Source: Sandaracinaceae bacterium | GTDB taxonomy: Bacteria > Myxococcota_A > Polyangia > Polyangiales > Sandaracinaceae | Direction: 5' to 3' | Assembly (NCBI GenBank): GCA_019637095.1 | Contig: JAHBWG010000036.1 | Location: 1 to 64,000 of the forward strand | DNA length: 64,000 bases | Shown: piece by piece, positions 1 through 7,983 of the stretch | Numbering within the stretch: position 1 is the stretch's first letter | Layout: each line of letters begins with the position of its first letter | Made by a program: the position numbers and the translations under genes | The notes under the pieces: generated by a model | What the model was told of the DNA's origin: nothing | What the model saw: the letters and a program-made list of their open reading frames with translations, nothing else | Database searches by the model: none

Positions 1-1923
1 GCGCACCGCGCCCTGGGCGAGCCGGGCGTGGCGGTCCCGTGGCTCGGGCTCGCGCTCGGGGTCGGCGGGGGCGTCCTGGGCGCGGTCGCGGCGCATCCGG
101 CGGTGGCCGTCGCCTCGGCGGCGCTCGCGGCGTGCGCGGCCTCGTACGCGCTCGTGCGCGGGTGGTCGTCGCGCGCGGCGGTGGGGTGGCTCGGATGGGC
201 GCTGCCCCCGTCGGGCGCGGTGCTCGCGGCGATCGGCGCGCTGCTGACGCACGGCGCGCGCGGCGACGCTCGCCTGTGGCTGGTCGGCGCGGGGGTCGCG
301 GCGTGCGCGGTCGTGGTGCGCGCGTGGCTCGATGCGCGCGCGATCCGTCCCGTCGACGAGACGGTGCGCTTGCTCGCGGCGAACGTGCCCGCGGCGGCGC
401 GCGTCCCGCAGCCCTCCGACGAGTGGTCGACCGAGGTGGCGACGGAGGAGGTCGCCGCCGTGCGCGTGCGCGCCGGGCAGGAGGTCCTCGCGGTCGAGGG
501 CGAGGTCGTGCCCGTCGACGGCGTGGTGCGCGCGGGGGAGGCGTACGCGCTGCTGCACCCGATCTCGCGGACGCCCGTGCGGCGCGGGCCCGGGGACCCG
601 CTGCTCGCGGGCGCGGTGCTCACGGAGGGCGCGGTGCGCATCCTCGCGACTCGCGCCGGTGACGACCGTGCGCTCGTGCGCCCGCGCGCGTTCGGAGAGC
701 CGCGCGCCGAGCGCGCCGCGGCGCCGGCGCGCCTCGCGGCGCGGCTGAGCGGGTGGGGCGGCCTCGCGCTCGTCGCGCTCGCCGCTGCGGGCGGCCTCCT
801 CGCGGGCGACCTCGGCGCGCAGCTCACGGTGGCGGGCGCGGTCCTGCTCGCGGCCCCGTTCGTCGCGCTGCGCCGCTCGTCCGACGCGCCGTACGTCGCC
901 GCCGGAGCGACCGCGGCGGAGCGCGGGATCGTCTTCCCGAGCGCGCGCGCGCTCGACCGCGCGGGCCGCGCCGCGACCGCCGCGTTCTGCTCGCACGGGG
1001 TCATCACGGAGGGCGAGCCCGAGATCGTGGAGATCCACGCGATCGGCGACGCGCCCTGGGAGCCGCTCATCGCGCTCGCGGCCGGCGCGGAGGCGAACGC
1101 GGCGCACCCGGTCGCGCGCGCGCTGATCCGGTTCTGCCAGCAGCGCGGCATCGAGCCGGTCCCCGCGAGGCGCGCGACGTTCGCGCCGGGCCGCGGCGTG
1201 ATCGCGGTGGCGGCGAGCGGTGAGGCGCTCGTCATCGGGAACCGCGCGCTCCTGCTCGAGCAGGGGGTCAGCGTGGCGATGGCGGACGCGGACGCCGTGC
1301 GCGCCGAGGAGCGCGGGCACACCGTCGTCTTCGTCGGCATCGAGGGGCGCGCTCGCGCGGTGGTGAGCCTGCGCGACGAAGATCGGCTCGGCGCGCGCGC
1401 CGCCGTGCAGCGGCTGATGGACCTCGGGATGGAGGTGGTCCTCATCAGCGGCGATCATCGCGCGACGGTCGAGGCGCTCGCGCGCCACCTGGACGTGACG
1501 CACGTCAAGGCGGAGCTCCTGCCCGAGGAGCGCGGGCCCGCGATCCAGCACCTGCGCGAGTCCGGCGGGCTCGTCGCCGTGGTGGGGCGGCCCGGGTACG
1601 ACGAGGAGCCGCTCGAGGCGGCCGACGTGCCGGTGGTGCTCGGCGCGGCGGGCGCCGTCGCGAGCGAGCGCGCGGTCGCCCTCACGGGCGACGATCCGCG
1701 CGACGCCGCGGCCGGCTTGTGGATCGCGCGCGCCGCGCGCAGGACGGCGCTGCGCGGGATGCTGATCGCGGGCGGCGCGGGCGGGCTGCTCGTGCTCCTC
1801 GCCGCCGCCGGCGTCGCGGCGCCGGCGTTCGTCGCGCTCGGCGCCCTCGCCGTCGACGCGTACGTCCTGCCGGGCGCGGAGCGGCTGCTCCGGCGGATCG
1901 AGCTGCGCCTGCCGCAGGGCTGA
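1..1923 (+). CDS. P1B-type ATPase-like membrane protein lacking the catalytic residues (5' end may lie outside the window)
   Basis: The overall order of a heavy-metal P1B ATPase is kept: N-terminal membrane segments, an actuator-like region (about residues 140-210 counted from the GTG at 28), a membrane pair, a P/N domain with an AAHP motif matching the family HP locus, and a C-terminal membrane pair. The signature residues are gone. The phosphorylated Asp of DKTGT is replaced (CSHGVITEG, Cys about residue 321), the CPC membrane motif reads AAPF, TGES is absent, and the GDGxND hinge reads VGRPGYDEEP. The frame is nevertheless open and codon use matches the neighbours, so this looks like a maintained pseudoenzyme rather than a decaying gene. 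It should not pump ions by the P-type cycle; a regulatory or scaffold role is only inferred. The frame is open to base 1, so GTG 28 is just one possible start. Confidence 0.8.
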   Translation, partial: AHRALGEPGVAVPWLGLALGVGGGVLGAVAAHPAVAVASAALAACAASYALVRGWSSRAAVGWLGWALPPSGAVLAAIGALLTHGARGDARLWLVGAGVAACAVVVRAWLDARAIRPVDETVRLLAANVPAAARVPQPSDEWSTEVATEEVAAVRVRAGQEVLAVEGEVVPVDGVVRAGEAYALLHPISRTPVRRGPGDPLLAGAVLTEGAVRILATRAGDDRALVRPRAFGEPRAERAAAPARLAARLSGWGGLALVALAAAGGLLAGDLGAQLTVAGAVLLAAPFVALRRSSDAPYVAAGATAAERGIVFPSARALDRAGRAATAAFCSHGVITEGEPEIVEIHAIGDAPWEPLIALAAGAEANAAHPVARALIRFCQQRGIEPVPARRATFAPGRGVIAVAASGEALVIGNRALLLEQGVSVAMADADAVRAEERGHTVVFVGIEGRARAVVSLRDEDRLGARAAVQRLMDLGMEVVLISGDHRATVEALARHLDVTHVKAELLPEERGPAIQHLRESGGLVAVVGRPGYDEEPLEAADVPVVLGAAGAVASERAVALTGDDPRDAAAGLWIARAARRTALRGMLIAGGAGGLLVLLAAAGVAAPAFVALGALAVDAYVLPGAERLLRRIELRLPQG

Positions 1924-1978
1924 CGTTCGCCGGTTTCTGGACCCGCGCCGCGCGCTCGTGCGATGGGAGCGCGAAGTC

Positions 1979-3625
1979 ATGCCGCTCGTGCGACGGCGTA
2001 TCCTCTTGCTCGTGGTGCTCGCGCTCGGTGGCTGTGAGGCCGTCGAGGTGAGCCCGATCGAGCTGCTCCCGGCGCCCGCCGCGGTCGAGTCGGCCGTCGC
2101 GGTCGAAGCGCCGCCACCCGTCGAGGCGCAGCGCCCCGTCGCGCCGCCCGCGCCTCGGCCGGTCGCGCGTCCCGCGCCGCCGGCGCCCGCGCCGCCTCCC
2201 GCGCCCGATCCCGAGGAGCTCGCCCGCCGCGAGGCGGAGGCGACGCGCCTCGCGTTCGAGCGCGAGTACCCGTGGCACGGCGTCGCGTACCACTTCCTCG
2301 CGCAGGTCTACGAGCGCGCCGACTCGCGCAGCCGCGTGATCGGCTACATGCGGCGGGGCGCGCAGTTCCGCGCCAAGGCGGGGCTCCGCGGGCACGGCTG
2401 CGAGCGCGGCTGGCACGCGGTGCCGGGCGGCGGCTTCGTGTGCCGCGGGGGTGGCTTCCAGCTCGGCGATCAGCCGCAGACGTTCGAGCCCTCGCCGGTG
2501 CTCGCCGCGACCGACAACGCGCTGCCGTACGCGTACGCGTGGGTGGCGCAAGACGACGTGCCACAGTACTGGAGGCTCCCGAGCCGCGCCGAGGAGCAGG
2601 AGGTGCTCGCGTGGATCGCGCGCCGCCGTCGCGCCGAGAGCACCCCCGCACAGCCCGAGCCGGCGCGCGCCCCGGAGCCGGACCTCGAGGCGCCGCCGGG
2701 GCTCGGCTCGAGCGAGGGCGTCGAGGCCGGCGAGGTGCCGCTCGACGGGGGCGTCCCCTCGCGCCCGTCCGCGGCTGCGCCGGCGGCGCCCGATCCGGCG
2801 CCGGCGGTCCTGCGCATGCGGATGCGGCGCGGCTTCTACGTGAGCATCGACCGGATCGAGACGAACGGGGCGCGGCGCTTCTATCGGACGATCCGCGGCG
2901 GCTACGTGCCGGTCGAGGCGGTCGCCGAGACGGCGCCGCCGTCGATGCGCGGCGTGGTGCTCGGCGGGCGGTGGCGCCTGCCGCTCGGGTTCGTGTACCG
3001 GGAGGGCGTGCGCAGCCTCTCGCGCGCGTCGGTCGGCGGGACGCTGCGCCTCGAGGCGCCGCTCGATCGCTTCACGCCGCTGCCGCTCACCGAGGAGTCG
3101 ATCACGCGGCGCGGGCAGCGCTTCCGTGTCGAGGACCGGGGCCGCGTCGTGCGCGAGGACGTCCTGCGCGTCGCGCGCCCCATCGATCGGCCGGCCCCGA
3201 TCCCGGCGAGGGACCGGTGGATCCACGTCGACCTGCGCGAGCAGGTGCTCGTCGCGTACGAGGGCGATCGGCCGGTCTTCGCGACGATGGTGTCGACGGG
3301 GCGTGAGGGTTATCGCACGCCGACGGGCACGTTCCGCATCCAATCCAAGCACGTCTCGGCGACGATGGACGACCCGGACGCGGGCGACGAGTCCTACTCG
3401 ATCGAGGACGTCCCGTGGACGATGTACTTCGAGGGTAGCTACGCGCTGCACGCCGCGTTCTGGCACGACCGCTTCGGGCGCCCGCGCAGCCACGGCTGCG
3501 TGAACCTCGCGCCGGCCGACGCGCGCTGGGTCTTCATGTTCAGCGCGCCGGAGCTGCCGCCCGGCTTCCACGGGATGAGCGCGGGCCGCGGCGCGATGGG
3601 CACCTGGGTCCACGTCACGGACTGA
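1979..3625 (+). CDS. L,D-transpeptidase (YkuD) lipoprotein
   Basis: A 548-residue exported protein. It starts MPLVRRRI with a hydrophobic stretch and an LGGC lipobox, followed by a Pro/Ala-rich linker (about residues 30-75), so it is probably a lipid-anchored envelope protein. The C-terminal quarter carries the YkuD catalytic block, with an upstream HAAFWHD histidine and SHGCVNL, placing the nucleophile near Cys507. Such enzymes form 3-3 cross-links or attach proteins to peptidoglycan; the substrate here is unknown. I chose ATG 1979 over GTG 1958 because a GGGAG ribosome site lies about 10 bases upstream and the signal peptide then begins properly. It converges with the esterase/extensin gene, which may also act on the wall. 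Confidence 0.88.
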   Translation: MPLVRRRILLLVVLALGGCEAVEVSPIELLPAPAAVESAVAVEAPPPVEAQRPVAPPAPRPVARPAPPAPAPPPAPDPEELARREAEATRLAFEREYPWHGVAYHFLAQVYERADSRSRVIGYMRRGAQFRAKAGLRGHGCERGWHAVPGGGFVCRGGGFQLGDQPQTFEPSPVLAATDNALPYAYAWVAQDDVPQYWRLPSRAEEQEVLAWIARRRRAESTPAQPEPARAPEPDLEAPPGLGSSEGVEAGEVPLDGGVPSRPSAAAPAAPDPAPAVLRMRMRRGFYVSIDRIETNGARRFYRTIRGGYVPVEAVAETAPPSMRGVVLGGRWRLPLGFVYREGVRSLSRASVGGTLRLEAPLDRFTPLPLTEESITRRGQRFRVEDRGRVVREDVLRVARPIDRPAPIPARDRWIHVDLREQVLVAYEGDRPVFATMVSTGREGYRTPTGTFRIQSKHVSATMDDPDAGDESYSIEDVPWTMYFEGSYALHAAFWHDRFGRPRSHGCVNLAPADARWVFMFSAPELPPGFHGMSAGRGAMGTWVHVTD

Positions 3626-3653: not shown

Positions 3654-6431
3654 TCAGCGCACGAAGACCCGGTCGTCGTCGGGCCGGATGTCGACGTGGA
3701 AGTGGTTGCGGTGCCCGTCGTTGTAGTTCGGCGTCAGCACCGAGCTGAAGGCCTGGGTCTCGACGAGGTCGCAGGCGATCCGCCGCAGCGCGCGCGCCTT
3801 GGCGTCGTCGGGCTCCGGCGCCTCGCACGTCCGGTGCGCCGGCGTCTCGACGAAGTCGGTCAACACGCTCAGGCGGCCGCGCCGCGTCTCGAACGAGAAG
3901 ATGTCGAGGGCCATCCCGAGGCGGTGGAAGCTCTGGTTCGGCCGCTCGCGGTGCGACGACAGGATCGCGATCGAGCGCACGTCCTGCCGTCGCGCGACGC
4001 GCGCCATGATGGGCAGGCGCGCGGCCAGCTCGCAGCTCACGATGACCGGCGAGTCGGGCCGCATGCTGCGGAACGAGACCCCCCCGACCGGTCCGGTGAT
4101 CTCGACCGGCGTGGGCACGGGCGTCCCGAGGTCGTCCACGACGCGCTGGTACTCGACGCCGAGCCGATCGAGGTCTCGCAAGCAGGCTTGCTCAGGACGG
4201 ATCTGCCAGATCGCGCGCTCGGCGCTGCGCCACTCGCCGCCTGGGATGATCGCGCGGTAGTTCAAGAACGTGGGCACCATCCGCGCGATCTGGCGCGCGA
4301 TCGGGCCGTTCGGATCGCTCGGCGGCGCGAGGAAGGCGGTGGGGCGCGGCGGCGCGGGCGGCACCTCGCCCGGCTCGAGCTCCGGCGGCGGCGTCTGCGC
4401 GAGCACGAGCGCGGGGATCACGAAGTCGTCCCGCGCGCCGACCGCGCGCGCGAGGGCGCGCATGCGCTCGGGGTCGACGTTTCCCGGGCGCGCCTCGGCC
4501 CGTGCCTCGTGCGGCGGGAGCTGCCAGTACCGATCGAAGAAGCCGTGGGCGAGCGGCTCGCGCCCGCGGCCCATCACGAGCCGCGGTCGCGCCGCGGTCG
4601 CGCGCGCGTCGTAGACGACGTAGTCCGGGACGAAGTCCGGGAGGTTGCGGGTGCGCGCGACCATGTCCGGGCTCGTGCCCAGGTGGACGAGCACGTACCG
4701 GTTCGGCGCCTCGGGGTTCGGGTAGACGTAGCGCGCGCCGAGCTGCGTGCCCTCGAAGCGCCGCCCGTTCGAGAGCGCGATCGCGTTCGCCTCGGCGCGG
4801 ATCGGGAGCGACTCCATCATCCGATCGAGCACCGCGTTGTCGCCCGGGCTGCCGTAGAGCGCGAGGTGCGCGGAGCGCATGAGCTCGGGCGTGACCTCGG
4901 TGTCTCGGATCACGCGCTGGCCGAGGTACCACACGCCGACCGGCCAGCCCCGCGCGCCGAGCTCGGCGGTGCGCCGCAGGGTCGCCTCCGCGCGCGGGTT
5001 CCGCGTGCCGTACACGTGGACGATCTCGTCGTGGTAGGCGTCGGACATCGGCCCGGCGAGGCCGGGCACCTTCTCGAGGCCCTCCGCCGGCGGCAGGAAC
5101 CCGACGCGCCATGGCGCCCCTTCGCTCTCGCGCGAGAACGTGGCGACGTGACCGAGGTGCAGCCGCGGCCCGGAGTAGACCTCCGCTCCGTCGAGGGACA
5201 CCGCGAGCGTGCCGGAGGGCCCGACCGGCGCGTCGCGCAGATCGAACGAGAGCTCGAGCACGTTCTCGGTCTCTGCGCGCAGGGCGCCGTCGGCGGCGCT
5301 CGCCCGGACCCGGGCGAGCTCGGGGTAGCGCGCGATGCGCGAGACGCTCACCCAGTGCTGGCGCGCGGCGCGGTAATCGCCGGTGACCACGCGCACCTCG
5401 GCGGGGCGCGGGTCGCGCACGAGCTCCGCGAGGTCGGGGTAGATGCGGCCGTGGCGGTGCACCATGTAGAGCAGATCGTGGCCGTGCTCGTACCAGCGCC
5501 CGCGCATGCGTAGGCCCATGTCCGCGACCCGGCGGTCGAGCTCGCGCACGTAGTCGGGTCGCATCGGGCCCGGGTCGACGGTGCCGTGGTAGTAGCGGAA
5601 GGTGGTGTTCTCGGTGTTCTCGAGCATCTCCAACGCGCTCACGCGCCGCAGGGTGGTCATCTCGACCGGGCTCGGGCGCCCGCCGGTGTACTGAATCCAG
5701 CTGGGCGCGCCGGCGATCGCCTGCACGGCGCTGAAACGCCACGCGTGCCGCGTCCCGACGGAGTACGCGCCCATCCCGCCGTTGCTCAGGCCGCCCAGGA
5801 CGACGCGGTTCGGGTCCACGCGGTAGTGGTGGGTTACGTCGTCGAGGACCTCGAGCACGTCCTGCTCGCCCATCCAGCGCCAGATCGGCTGCCCCACGCC
5901 GTCGGGCGCGACCACGATCCAGTCCGGCGTCCAGCGGGCGGTGAAGTCGTCGTAGAGGAACTGGCTGTAGCGGAGCCAGTCCATGTTGTTCCCGAGGACC
6001 ACGCCGAGGAACAGGTTCCCGTTCGACGAGCCGCCGTGCAGCATGATCAGCAGCGGGTAGGCGCGCGAAGGGTCGTAGTTCGGCGGCAGGTAGATCGCGT
6101 AGCCCTGGCGCACCGGGCTGAAGCTCGCGCGGTAGCCGCGGTTGAGGAGCTGCCCGGCGCCGGCGTGGTACGGGTCGCGCCCGGCGGCCGCCGCCTCGAG
6201 GAAGCTCGCCGCGCGGCTGCGCCAGCTGTTCGACTGCGTCGGGAAGCGCCGCTCGATCCGCTCGGCGACGTCGATCAGGTACTCGATGCTGACGAGCGTG
6301 CCTTCGGGGACCGATGGGGGGCGCGCGCGCCGGACGGTCTCGACGCGGTCGCGGAGCTCACGGAAGGACTGCGCCCGGGCGGGGCTCGCCGCGAGCAGGA
6401 GGAGGGGGAGCAAGAGGCGGAGGATGCGCAT
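3654..6431 (-). CDS. Secreted alpha/beta-hydrolase (PHB-depolymerase/esterase-like) fused to an extensin-like M15-fold domain
   Basis: 925 residues. ATG 6431 gives a clean signal peptide (MRILRLLLPLLLLAASPARA) and has GAAGG about 9 bases upstream; the same frame runs on upstream without a plausible start. Residues about 90-370 form an esterase-type alpha/beta hydrolase: an oxyanion-loop LHGGSSNG, then GLSNGGMG with the nucleophile near Ser216. A long middle region has no recognised domain. The last 230 or so residues match the extensin-like C-terminal/peptidase M15 fold: SFHRLGMALDI near 836 and GHRNHFHVDI near 910 supply the His/Asp metal ligands. Combining a carbohydrate- or polyester-type esterase with a D,D-peptidase-like fold in one secreted protein is unusual. 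The substrate is unknown; envelope or prey-polymer processing is inference. Confidence 0.75.
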   Translation of the reverse strand: MRILRLLLPLLLLAASPARAQSFRELRDRVETVRRARPPSVPEGTLVSIEYLIDVAERIERRFPTQSNSWRSRAASFLEAAAAGRDPYHAGAGQLLNRGYRASFSPVRQGYAIYLPPNYDPSRAYPLLIMLHGGSSNGNLFLGVVLGNNMDWLRYSQFLYDDFTARWTPDWIVVAPDGVGQPIWRWMGEQDVLEVLDDVTHHYRVDPNRVVLGGLSNGGMGAYSVGTRHAWRFSAVQAIAGAPSWIQYTGGRPSPVEMTTLRRVSALEMLENTENTTFRYYHGTVDPGPMRPDYVRELDRRVADMGLRMRGRWYEHGHDLLYMVHRHGRIYPDLAELVRDPRPAEVRVVTGDYRAARQHWVSVSRIARYPELARVRASAADGALRAETENVLELSFDLRDAPVGPSGTLAVSLDGAEVYSGPRLHLGHVATFSRESEGAPWRVGFLPPAEGLEKVPGLAGPMSDAYHDEIVHVYGTRNPRAEATLRRTAELGARGWPVGVWYLGQRVIRDTEVTPELMRSAHLALYGSPGDNAVLDRMMESLPIRAEANAIALSNGRRFEGTQLGARYVYPNPEAPNRYVLVHLGTSPDMVARTRNLPDFVPDYVVYDARATAARPRLVMGRGREPLAHGFFDRYWQLPPHEARAEARPGNVDPERMRALARAVGARDDFVIPALVLAQTPPPELEPGEVPPAPPRPTAFLAPPSDPNGPIARQIARMVPTFLNYRAIIPGGEWRSAERAIWQIRPEQACLRDLDRLGVEYQRVVDDLGTPVPTPVEITGPVGGVSFRSMRPDSPVIVSCELAARLPIMARVARRQDVRSIAILSSHRERPNQSFHRLGMALDIFSFETRRGRLSVLTDFVETPAHRTCEAPEPDDAKARALRRIACDLVETQAFSSVLTPNYNDGHRNHFHVDIRPDDDRVFVR

Positions 6432-6499
6432 CGGATCTGCCTTCGATTGTGTCGCATCGGGCGCGGGGGCGCCTGTAACCGGAGCGCGATGGCTTCGCG

Positions 6500-6528
6500 T
6501 TGCGGCCGCGGGCGGCTTCTCATAGGTT
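6500..6528 (+). promoter_or_regulatory. Candidate sigma-70-like promoter of the sugar transferase gene
   Basis: TTGCGG (6500-6505) and TAGGTT (6523-6528) are separated by 17 bases in the 130-base divergent gap, and would start transcription about 27 bases before ATG 6562. Both boxes are only partial matches to consensus. Confidence 0.2.
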
Positions 6529-6561
6529 GCCGGCACTCGTGACCGCGAAGGCGCAGCGAAC

Positions 6562-7983
6562 ATGGCCAGAGGCGGGCTGATCCGCCCCTACGGCTCCGCG
6601 ATCCCGCTGGCCCAGCGCCTCTTCGACGCGGGCTGGATCGCCGCGGTGCATTACGCGGCGTACGCGGCGTACTCCAAGGCGCCCTGGGAGACGCAGCAGA
6701 CGCTGGCGACGGGCGCGGCGGTCCTGGCGTTCTACGTGACCGGCGAGATGGCGGGGCTCTACCAGCCGGCGCGCGGCGTGCCGCTCGCGAAGCAGCTCGT
6801 CCGCATCTGGGCGGCGTGGCTGCCGGTCGTCGCGGTGCTCCTGGGCGCGGCGTTCCTGCTCAAGACGACGGACCAGTTCAGCCGGCTCGCGACGGGCGGA
6901 TGGCTCGTCGGGGCGCCGATCGCGATCAGCGTGTGGCGCGGCGGCGTCGCGACCGTGCTGCGCCAGCTCCGGCTCCAGGGTCGGAACCTCCGCACGGTCG
7001 CGATCTGCGGGGTCACCGAGATCGGCATCGAGCTCGCGCAGCGCATCTCGGGCCGCCCGCAGCTCGGGCTGCGGCTGATCGGCTTCTTCGACGACCGCAC
7101 GCCCGACCGGCTCGAGCGCGTCAGCCTGACGCACGGGGGCATCGTCGGGACCTTCGACGATCTCGTCGAGGGCGCGCGCCGAGGTGAGGTGGATCTCATC
7201 TACATCGCGCTGCCGCTCAAGGCCGAGCCGCGTGTCAACGCGCTGCTGCGCCGGCTCGCGGACACGACCGCGAGCGTCTACATCGTGCCCGACTTCTTCG
7301 TCTTCGATCTCCTGCACGGCCGGTGGAGCCAGCTCGGCGACCTGCCCGTCGTGAGCATCTTCGAGACGCCGTTCTTCGGGATCGACGGCTGGGTCAAGCG
7401 CCTCGAGGACATCGTGCTCGGGACGTTCTTCCTCGTCTGCGGCGCGCCGCTGATGACGCTCATCGCGATCGCGATCAAGCTCGACAGCAAGGGCCCGGTG
7501 TTCTTCAAGCAGCGCCGCTACGGGCTCGAGGGCGAGGTCATCGAGGTGCTGAAGTTCCGCACGATGACCGTCGCCGAGGACGGCGCGCAGGTGAAGCAGG
7601 CCACCAAGGACGACCAGCGGATCACGCGCGTCGGCCGGCTCCTGCGGCGCACCTCGCTCGACGAGATCCCGCAGCTCCTCCACGTGGTCGGCGGGAGCAT
7701 GTCGCTCGTCGGGCCGCGCCCGCACGCCGTCGCCCACAACGAGCTCTACCGCAAGAAGATCAGCGGCTACATGCTCCGCCACAAGGTCAAGCCCGGGCTC
7801 ACCGGCTGGGCCCAGGTCAACGGCTGGCGGGGCGAGACCGACGAGCTCTGGAAGATGGAGAAGCGGATCGAGCACGACCTCGAGTACATCCGGCGCTGGG
7901 GGCTCCTGTTCGACCTCCAGATCGTGTTCCTGACCGTCTGGGGCGTGCTCTTCGGCGGCAAGGTGCGCGCGAACGCGTATTGA
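6562..7983 (+). CDS. Undecaprenyl-phosphate sugar-1-phosphate transferase (WbaP/WcaJ-type), copy 1
   Basis: 473 residues. It has four N-terminal membrane segments, a central CoA-binding-like domain (about 140-260, including VAICGVTEIG and GFFDDRT), a fifth hydrophobic segment, and a C-terminal bacterial sugar transferase domain with FKQRRYG, KFRTM, RRTSLDEIPQL, SLVGPRPHA and KPGLTGWAQVNG. Enzymes of this family move a hexose-1-phosphate from a nucleotide sugar to undecaprenyl phosphate at the inner membrane, the committed step of exopolysaccharide assembly. A close paralogue sits at 58050..59459, near the far end of the cluster; both begin with a GLIRP motif right after the start. It is divergent from the esterase gene and probably heads a plus-strand run with the Hsp70-like and DCC genes. 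Confidence 0.92.
   Translation: MARGGLIRPYGSAIPLAQRLFDAGWIAAVHYAAYAAYSKAPWETQQTLATGAAVLAFYVTGEMAGLYQPARGVPLAKQLVRIWAAWLPVVAVLLGAAFLLKTTDQFSRLATGGWLVGAPIAISVWRGGVATVLRQLRLQGRNLRTVAICGVTEIGIELAQRISGRPQLGLRLIGFFDDRTPDRLERVSLTHGGIVGTFDDLVEGARRGEVDLIYIALPLKAEPRVNALLRRLADTTASVYIVPDFFVFDLLHGRWSQLGDLPVVSIFETPFFGIDGWVKRLEDIVLGTFFLVCGAPLMTLIAIAIKLDSKGPVFFKQRRYGLEGEVIEVLKFRTMTVAEDGAQVKQATKDDQRITRVGRLLRRTSLDEIPQLLHVVGGSMSLVGPRPHAVAHNELYRKKISGYMLRHKVKPGLTGWAQVNGWRGETDELWKMEKRIEHDLEYIRRWGLLFDLQIVFLTVWGVLFGGKVRANAY

Follow-up and report, generated by a model that had tools for sequence, protein, structure and literature searches.

The stretch of DNA analysed here (the window) covers 64,000 nucleotides from a Sandaracinaceae bacterium, and it opens with base 1 of contig C128 (GenBank JAHBWG010000036.1) in a 9.25 Mb draft genome. 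Frame 1 of positions 1 to 1923 is free of stops through 640 codons, confirming the intact frame reported in a preliminary description of this locus. The encoded 640 residues belong to the P-type ATPase superfamily by homology and fold. Specifically, the E1-E2_ATPase and HAD hydrolase matches exceed their Pfam cut-offs, and the predicted model and PDB matches show A, P and N domains attached to a helical membrane portion. Scores of the same 640 residues stay below the curated cut-off of every NCBIfam P-type family listed, the best being TIGR01525 at 222.5 bits against 346.25.

The gene is truncated by the contig end, and thus its start lies outside the window. The missing 5′ end is found on contig C161 (reverse strand, positions 36 to 200), where it encodes a four-cysteine (Cys4) finger. 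The ends of C128 and C161 do not overlap, and a short linker between them is unassembled. The split falls in a proline- and GC-rich linker, whose window part has 80% GC and a GC3 of 97% (window 1 to 1923 and positions 1 to 200 of the upstream piece L072). Genes were called with a custom codon-usage script rather than a standard caller.

Counts below refer to 64 members, namely the window gene and 63 relatives, aligned alongside 5 and subsequently 52 ordinary pumps. The relatives were drawn from the 111 other genomes with a high-scoring match (24 from a BLAST-ranked list and 39 hand-picked for spread), such that the motif counts exclude the other 48 genomes. Two further loci, L063 and L225, encode ordinary pumps and were removed from the members. 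The features of the locus are as follows.

1 to 1923, forward strand: 3′ part of the pseudo-P1B-ATPase gene, 640 codons plus stop; open frame with Pfam E1-E2_ATPase and Hydrolase matches over cut-off
559 to 570, forward strand: position of the A-domain TGES motif (residues 187 to 190), with S189 for Glu; Glu in 0/64
856 to 864, forward strand: position of the M4 CPC motif, P286-F287-V288 by alignment
988 to 1002, forward strand: position of DKTGT, C330-S-H-G-V334; Asp in 0/64, C in 44, S in 10
1090 to 1110, forward strand: N-domain E364...H369-P370, kept; E in 53/64, H in 40/64, P in 57/64
1189 to 1197, forward strand: N-domain GxG loop G397-R-G399, kept; Gly in 63/64 and 62/64
1237 to 1245, forward strand: N-domain G413-N414-R415; G and R invariant (64/64), N in 15/64
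1396 to 1422, forward strand: P-domain helix with R466, Q470 and D474 (i, i+4, i+8); R466 in 62/64, and the family-specific Q470 in 61/64 and D474 in 62/64
1447 to 1455, forward strand: S483-G-D485, a TGD-like motif kept by alignment
1531 to 1533, forward strand: R511 replacing the P-domain Lys; R in 57/64, Lys in 52/52 ordinary P1B pumps
1585 to 1602, forward strand: position of GDGxND, G529-R-P-G-Y-D534; the first Asp is absent from 64/64 members, the last one present in 62/64
1958 to 3625, forward strand: L,D-transpeptidase (YkuD) gene just downstream, which also adjoins the pseudo-ATPase gene in part of the relatives
3657 to 6563, reverse strand: gene for a large protein that combines a putative esterase domain with an extensin-like C-terminal domain, beside the YkuD gene

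Pump motifs lost and kept

The phosphorylatable Asp required of a functional P-type ATPase is absent from every member, as is the neighbouring Lys of DKTGT (0/64 each). Two residues after the Asp position, R or H is found in 59/64, followed by G in 56/64 and T in 57/64. The preliminary description had proposed examining the conservation of CSHG. The site is indeed conserved, but as [C/S]-x-[R/H]-G-T, and CSHG as such is not the family signature. The Glu of TGES is likewise missing from all 64 members, and neither the first nor the second Cys of the CPx motif in M4, a hallmark of P1B pumps, occurs in any of them. At GDGxND, the Asn is also found in 0/64, and the window gene carries R530 for the first Asp and Y533 for the Asn.

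Substitution of Cys or Ser for the HAD-type nucleophile Asp, with R or H two residues on in most members, might indicate a new enzyme with some other phosphotransfer or hydrolase activity. We consider this very unlikely, given that 10/64 members have neither Cys nor Ser at this position and that the first GDGxND Asp and the P-domain Lys are lost as well.

Residues other than those above are retained. In canonical pumps, the N-domain E, H, GxG and GN residues contact ATP, and CPx, TGES and the P-domain Lys have established roles of their own. The earlier statement that every catalytic signature had been replaced holds for the phosphorylated Asp, CPC, the TGES Glu and, within GDGxND, the first Asp and the Asn, but not for E364, H369, G397-x-G399, G413-N414, S483-G-D485 and D534, all of which are kept; its observation that the HP motif (H369-P370) persists is correct. 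The Glu, the His, both loop Gly residues and G413 are jointly present in 35/64 members, the window gene among them. Judged by these residues, the nucleotide pocket of the N domain is still there in many members, including the window gene. Because the pocket is eroded, with the complete set in only 35/64, nucleotide binding can hardly be the universal function of the family, and the idea that it might be is weakened.

Distribution, origin and selection

Of 144 genomes of the order, 112 (by hand count over the matches listed) give one match of at least 359 bits to a profile built from 25 members, with the next best matches at 321 bits. We infer that this order is Polyangiales from the named relatives with at least 46% identity, which carry the labels Sandaracinus, Sandaracinaceae, Polyangiaceae, Myxococcales, Myxococcota and Polyangia, together with older Deltaproteobacteria or Proteobacteria labels for metagenome-assembled genomes; NCBI places Sandaracinus in Polyangiales. 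The second profile matches of G119, G109 and G137 (306 to 321 bits) are the top scores among presumed ordinary pumps. The remaining 32 of the 144 genomes lack a high-scoring match. Some of these are nearly complete, and thus the gene is dispensable in some lineages. The members read span 9 of the 12 family codes seen, and no member was found in f2, f6 or f11, each of which is represented by one or two genomes.

A class-wide sample of 144 genomes yields 20 matches at 1e-90, of which 19, including that from the window's genome, fall within the same order. The sole outsider at the class level (L225 from genome G248, 322 bits) has DKTGT and was rejected as a family member because it is an ordinary pump.

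A tree places 39 members on one side of a branch and 53 ordinary pumps on the other with SH-aLRT support of 100, as computed by a quick method on the window gene and 38 of the 63 relatives, with six long branches and many rows that deviate from the mean composition. Highly divergent members on long branches include L222, L223, L057 and L219. A single supported clade makes one origin the simplest reading.

Synonymous and nonsynonymous rates were taken from the relatives (NG86), since the best relative of the window gene has only 65-66% identity and is too distant for this purpose. Among 15 pairs with dS below 0.7, dN/dS is 0.05-0.23, and over all 32 pairs compared the maximum is 0.45, reached by a distant pair. 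In four close loci (L207 to L210) the pseudo-ATPase value of 0.07-0.11 is at or below most of those for argF, argD and the Fur-family gene alongside; in pairs with argH, the argH value is below that of the pseudo-ATPase.

One could still suspect a decaying pseudogene or an assembly error, as the gene is spread across two contigs of a draft assembly. The same losses occur, however, in long open frames from 63 other genomes, including some assembled as a single contig, and dN/dS is well under 1. This explanation is already refuted, and we assign it almost no weight; a recent pseudogene is rejected by the motif losses common to the relatives and the low dN/dS. Neither of the outcomes named beforehand as contrary, an absence of homologues sharing the substitutions or a dN/dS near 1, was observed, and the earlier proposal of selection for a non-pumping role agrees with the losses common to homologues and the low ratios of close pairs. 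The family is an old pseudoenzyme kept by purifying selection, not a decaying gene. It combines lost catalytic residues, a retained fold and purifying selection, as expected of a pseudoenzyme; inactivity itself is predicted. Together, these data show an ancient pseudoenzyme family that derives from P1B (CopA-type) copper pumps, has a single origin by the tree, and is widespread in Polyangiales. Its members retain the fold of a pump but have lost the metal path and, with the TGES Glu, the residue that serves dephosphorylation.

Conserved regions and the cysteine finger

An AlphaFold model of a relative (from genome G005, using a 25-row alignment) has a pLDDT of 90.4 and a pTM of 0.83. The closest solved structures are CopA in its E1 state (7r0g) and the CopA P and N domains with AMPPCP-Mg or ADP-Mg. 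Matches to the latter have Z scores of 26.5-27.0 and rmsd values of 1.6-1.8 over 263 residues, with 3a1e (AMPPCP-Mg) at Z 27.0 and 1.6 over 263. Similarity to the CopA type spans nearly the whole length (293 bits), and the family shares with CopA (3j09, 3a1e, 7r0g) its domain order of membrane helices, A, P and N, its predicted fold and its N-domain GxG loop. It differs in lacking the phosphorylated Asp, the TGES Glu, CPC, the invariant P-domain Lys, the first GDG Asp and the conserved columns of MA-M4, and in having the Cys4 finger in place of the HMA domain.

It is the cytosolic domains and the YHS/TRASH-type finger that are conserved. Columns with at least 85% identity number 0/177 in MA-M4 and 5/70 in M5-M6, compared with 29/101 in the second part of the P domain and 9/38 in the finger. 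In M3-M4, ordinary pumps have 13/66 such columns whereas the family has 0/66. The helices are nonetheless hydrophobic on average, with M3 the lowest (Kyte-Doolittle mean of at least 1.0 in 30/64 members). A membrane part that serves only as an anchor best explains helices that are hydrophobic yet unconserved. The persistence of hydrophobic helices in most members might also be expected of a transporter or channel with an altered, ATP-independent mechanism, but the complete absence of conserved columns from MA-M4, set against the 13/66 of ordinary pumps in M3-M4, makes this highly improbable.

When aligned with the 52 ordinary pumps, 11 columns reach 88% conservation or more among family members yet no more than 15% in the pumps. 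Among them are R390 and R415 (64/64 each), E436 (63), Q470 (61), D474 (62), R511 (57) and G551 (63). Based on their spacing by four along one predicted helix, R466, Q470 and D474 could form a candidate binding surface.

All four finger Cys residues are present in 60-61 of the 61 members that have the finger, and Cys occupies the first ligand position in 61/61. The 3-4 ligand Cys spaced Cx2C...Cx3C that characterize YHS/TRASH domains are found here. A profile of the finger scores 42.1 against YHS domains, whereas 40 column-shuffled controls score no more than 13.4; this YHS set consists of five sequences from four loci, four lying within DKTGT pump frames and one in a separate small frame of L101. 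By this profile comparison, the finger is related to YHS domains. The curated Pfam score for YHS/TRASH is not reached, and no finger hit passes the threshold among the 7 proteins scanned, as in L061 (TRASH_HVO_1752_C, E 0.021; zf-FCS, E 0.33). The finger folded alone has a pLDDT of 86. A PDB fold search with it returns nothing under E 0.001, the best match being a weak one to ribosomal L24e (E 0.03, probability 0.99).

According to one study (PMC4626032), four Cys residues of L24e ligate Cd, Asp is frequent as the first ligand among YHS and TRASH domains, and a YHS domain, probably a copper sensor, confers a copper response on an M. phlei adenylyl cyclase. The family shares the Cys-x2-Cys ... 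Cys-x3-Cys arrangement with the TRASH/YHS modules and L24e covered there, but its finger, whose metal binding is putative, is fused to a dead pump.

Gene neighbourhood and candidate functions

An arginine biosynthesis gene is the immediate same-strand neighbour in 42/63 relatives' loci (argH downstream in 15, argD upstream in 14, argF upstream in 13), mostly across gaps of fewer than 110 bases, with neighbour product names here and below resting on representatives only. Often lysA is found behind argH, and a Fur-family regulator gene lies downstream in 15 of 63 loci. In twelve loci (L200, L201, L203, L204, L206 to L210, L218, L223 and L227), argF, the pseudo-ATPase gene and the Fur-family gene stand in a row on one strand. 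With its mostly short gaps, this row is likely an operon. In the window's genome, C161 carries argH and lysA upstream of the pseudo-ATPase gene, divergently oriented and behind a porin-like gene. Extending the search to four genes gives an arginine gene in 43/63 loci and none in 20/63, among them the f5 loci and three loci with genus code g2. Neighbours in the loci that lack one are YkuD, Nudix, frr or other genes, and in the f5 and g2 loci Nudix or frr follows. We take the Nudix and frr genes to be such from reading their sequences.

What might a pump that presumably does not pump do beside these genes? The reading we favour, to which we give about an even chance, is a membrane-anchored, non-transporting regulatory protein that receives a metal input via its finger and acts in arginine regulation or tethering. 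The variable hydrophobic helices would serve as the anchor, and the Cys4 finger would be a putative transition-metal site (Zn or Cu). The conserved A/P/N head would present a ligand-responsive or partner-binding surface, its nucleotide pocket still present in many members. The output would be of a regulatory or scaffolding kind, most likely regulation or membrane tethering of arginine biosynthesis according to the metal or nucleotide state, which is the weakest step of the proposal. We tie the output to this pathway because the gene usually adjoins ones for arginine biosynthesis, as well as lysA or a Fur-family regulator. With 20/63 loci lacking a nearby arginine gene, however, the link may reflect inherited gene order rather than function. 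This link is the best clue to the output.

A more specific version, in which a copper pump has become a membrane-bound sensor of both metal and nucleotide that controls arginine (and lysine) biosynthesis via a new P/N-domain surface, strikes us as distinctly unlikely, while the sensor role raised in the preliminary description is possible in general terms.

Alternatively, the dead copy may work as the regulatory partner of a true P1B pump encoded at another site, pairing or competing with an active CopA-like pump. Candidates exist, since the same genome encodes eight other P-type ATPases, all with DKTGT, and both the fold and the YHS-type finger match those of copper pumps. Nevertheless, no second P-type ATPase was found in the 63 relatives' loci, the window or L072, the upstream piece of 15 kb, so that the earlier suggestion of a genuine pump possibly just upstream is not supported, and the membrane helices, the natural pairing surface, are unconserved. 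We regard a partner role as unlikely, although it retains appreciable weight.

A single phosphorylated Asp is what defines P-type pumps, and here an order-wide clade has lost that Asp along with the rest of the machinery. A UniProt survey (PMC3896382) reports DKTGT in 99.77% of P-type ATPases, with 22 exceptions. Like these variants, the family is P-type with no intact DKTGT, but the variants have single point changes whereas here the whole motif set is gone from a conserved clade. The passages of PMC10654040 consulted make no mention of such a family, and no description was found in literature on inactive, pseudo- or uncharacterised P-type ATPases, the finger domain or myxobacteria, a coverage that excludes most subscription journals. 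About as tightly conserved as the adjoining arginine enzymes, the family would be a natural pseudo-pump family and offers a defined setting in which to study what the headpiece of a pump can do without pumping. These observations suggest that the pump shape has been put to a new use, probably in sensing or regulation.

Four of the loci examined (L094, L098, L101 and L135) encode ordinary pumps of the copper type that carry a YHS domain in frame, and these provide a plausible picture of the ancestor. Their finger is related to that of the family by profile comparison, but they keep DKTGT and CPx, and their finger opens with Asp (DxVCG) whereas that of the family opens with Cys (CxxC). On the other side of the gene, the pairing of the esterase/extensin-like protein with YkuD recurs in several relatives.
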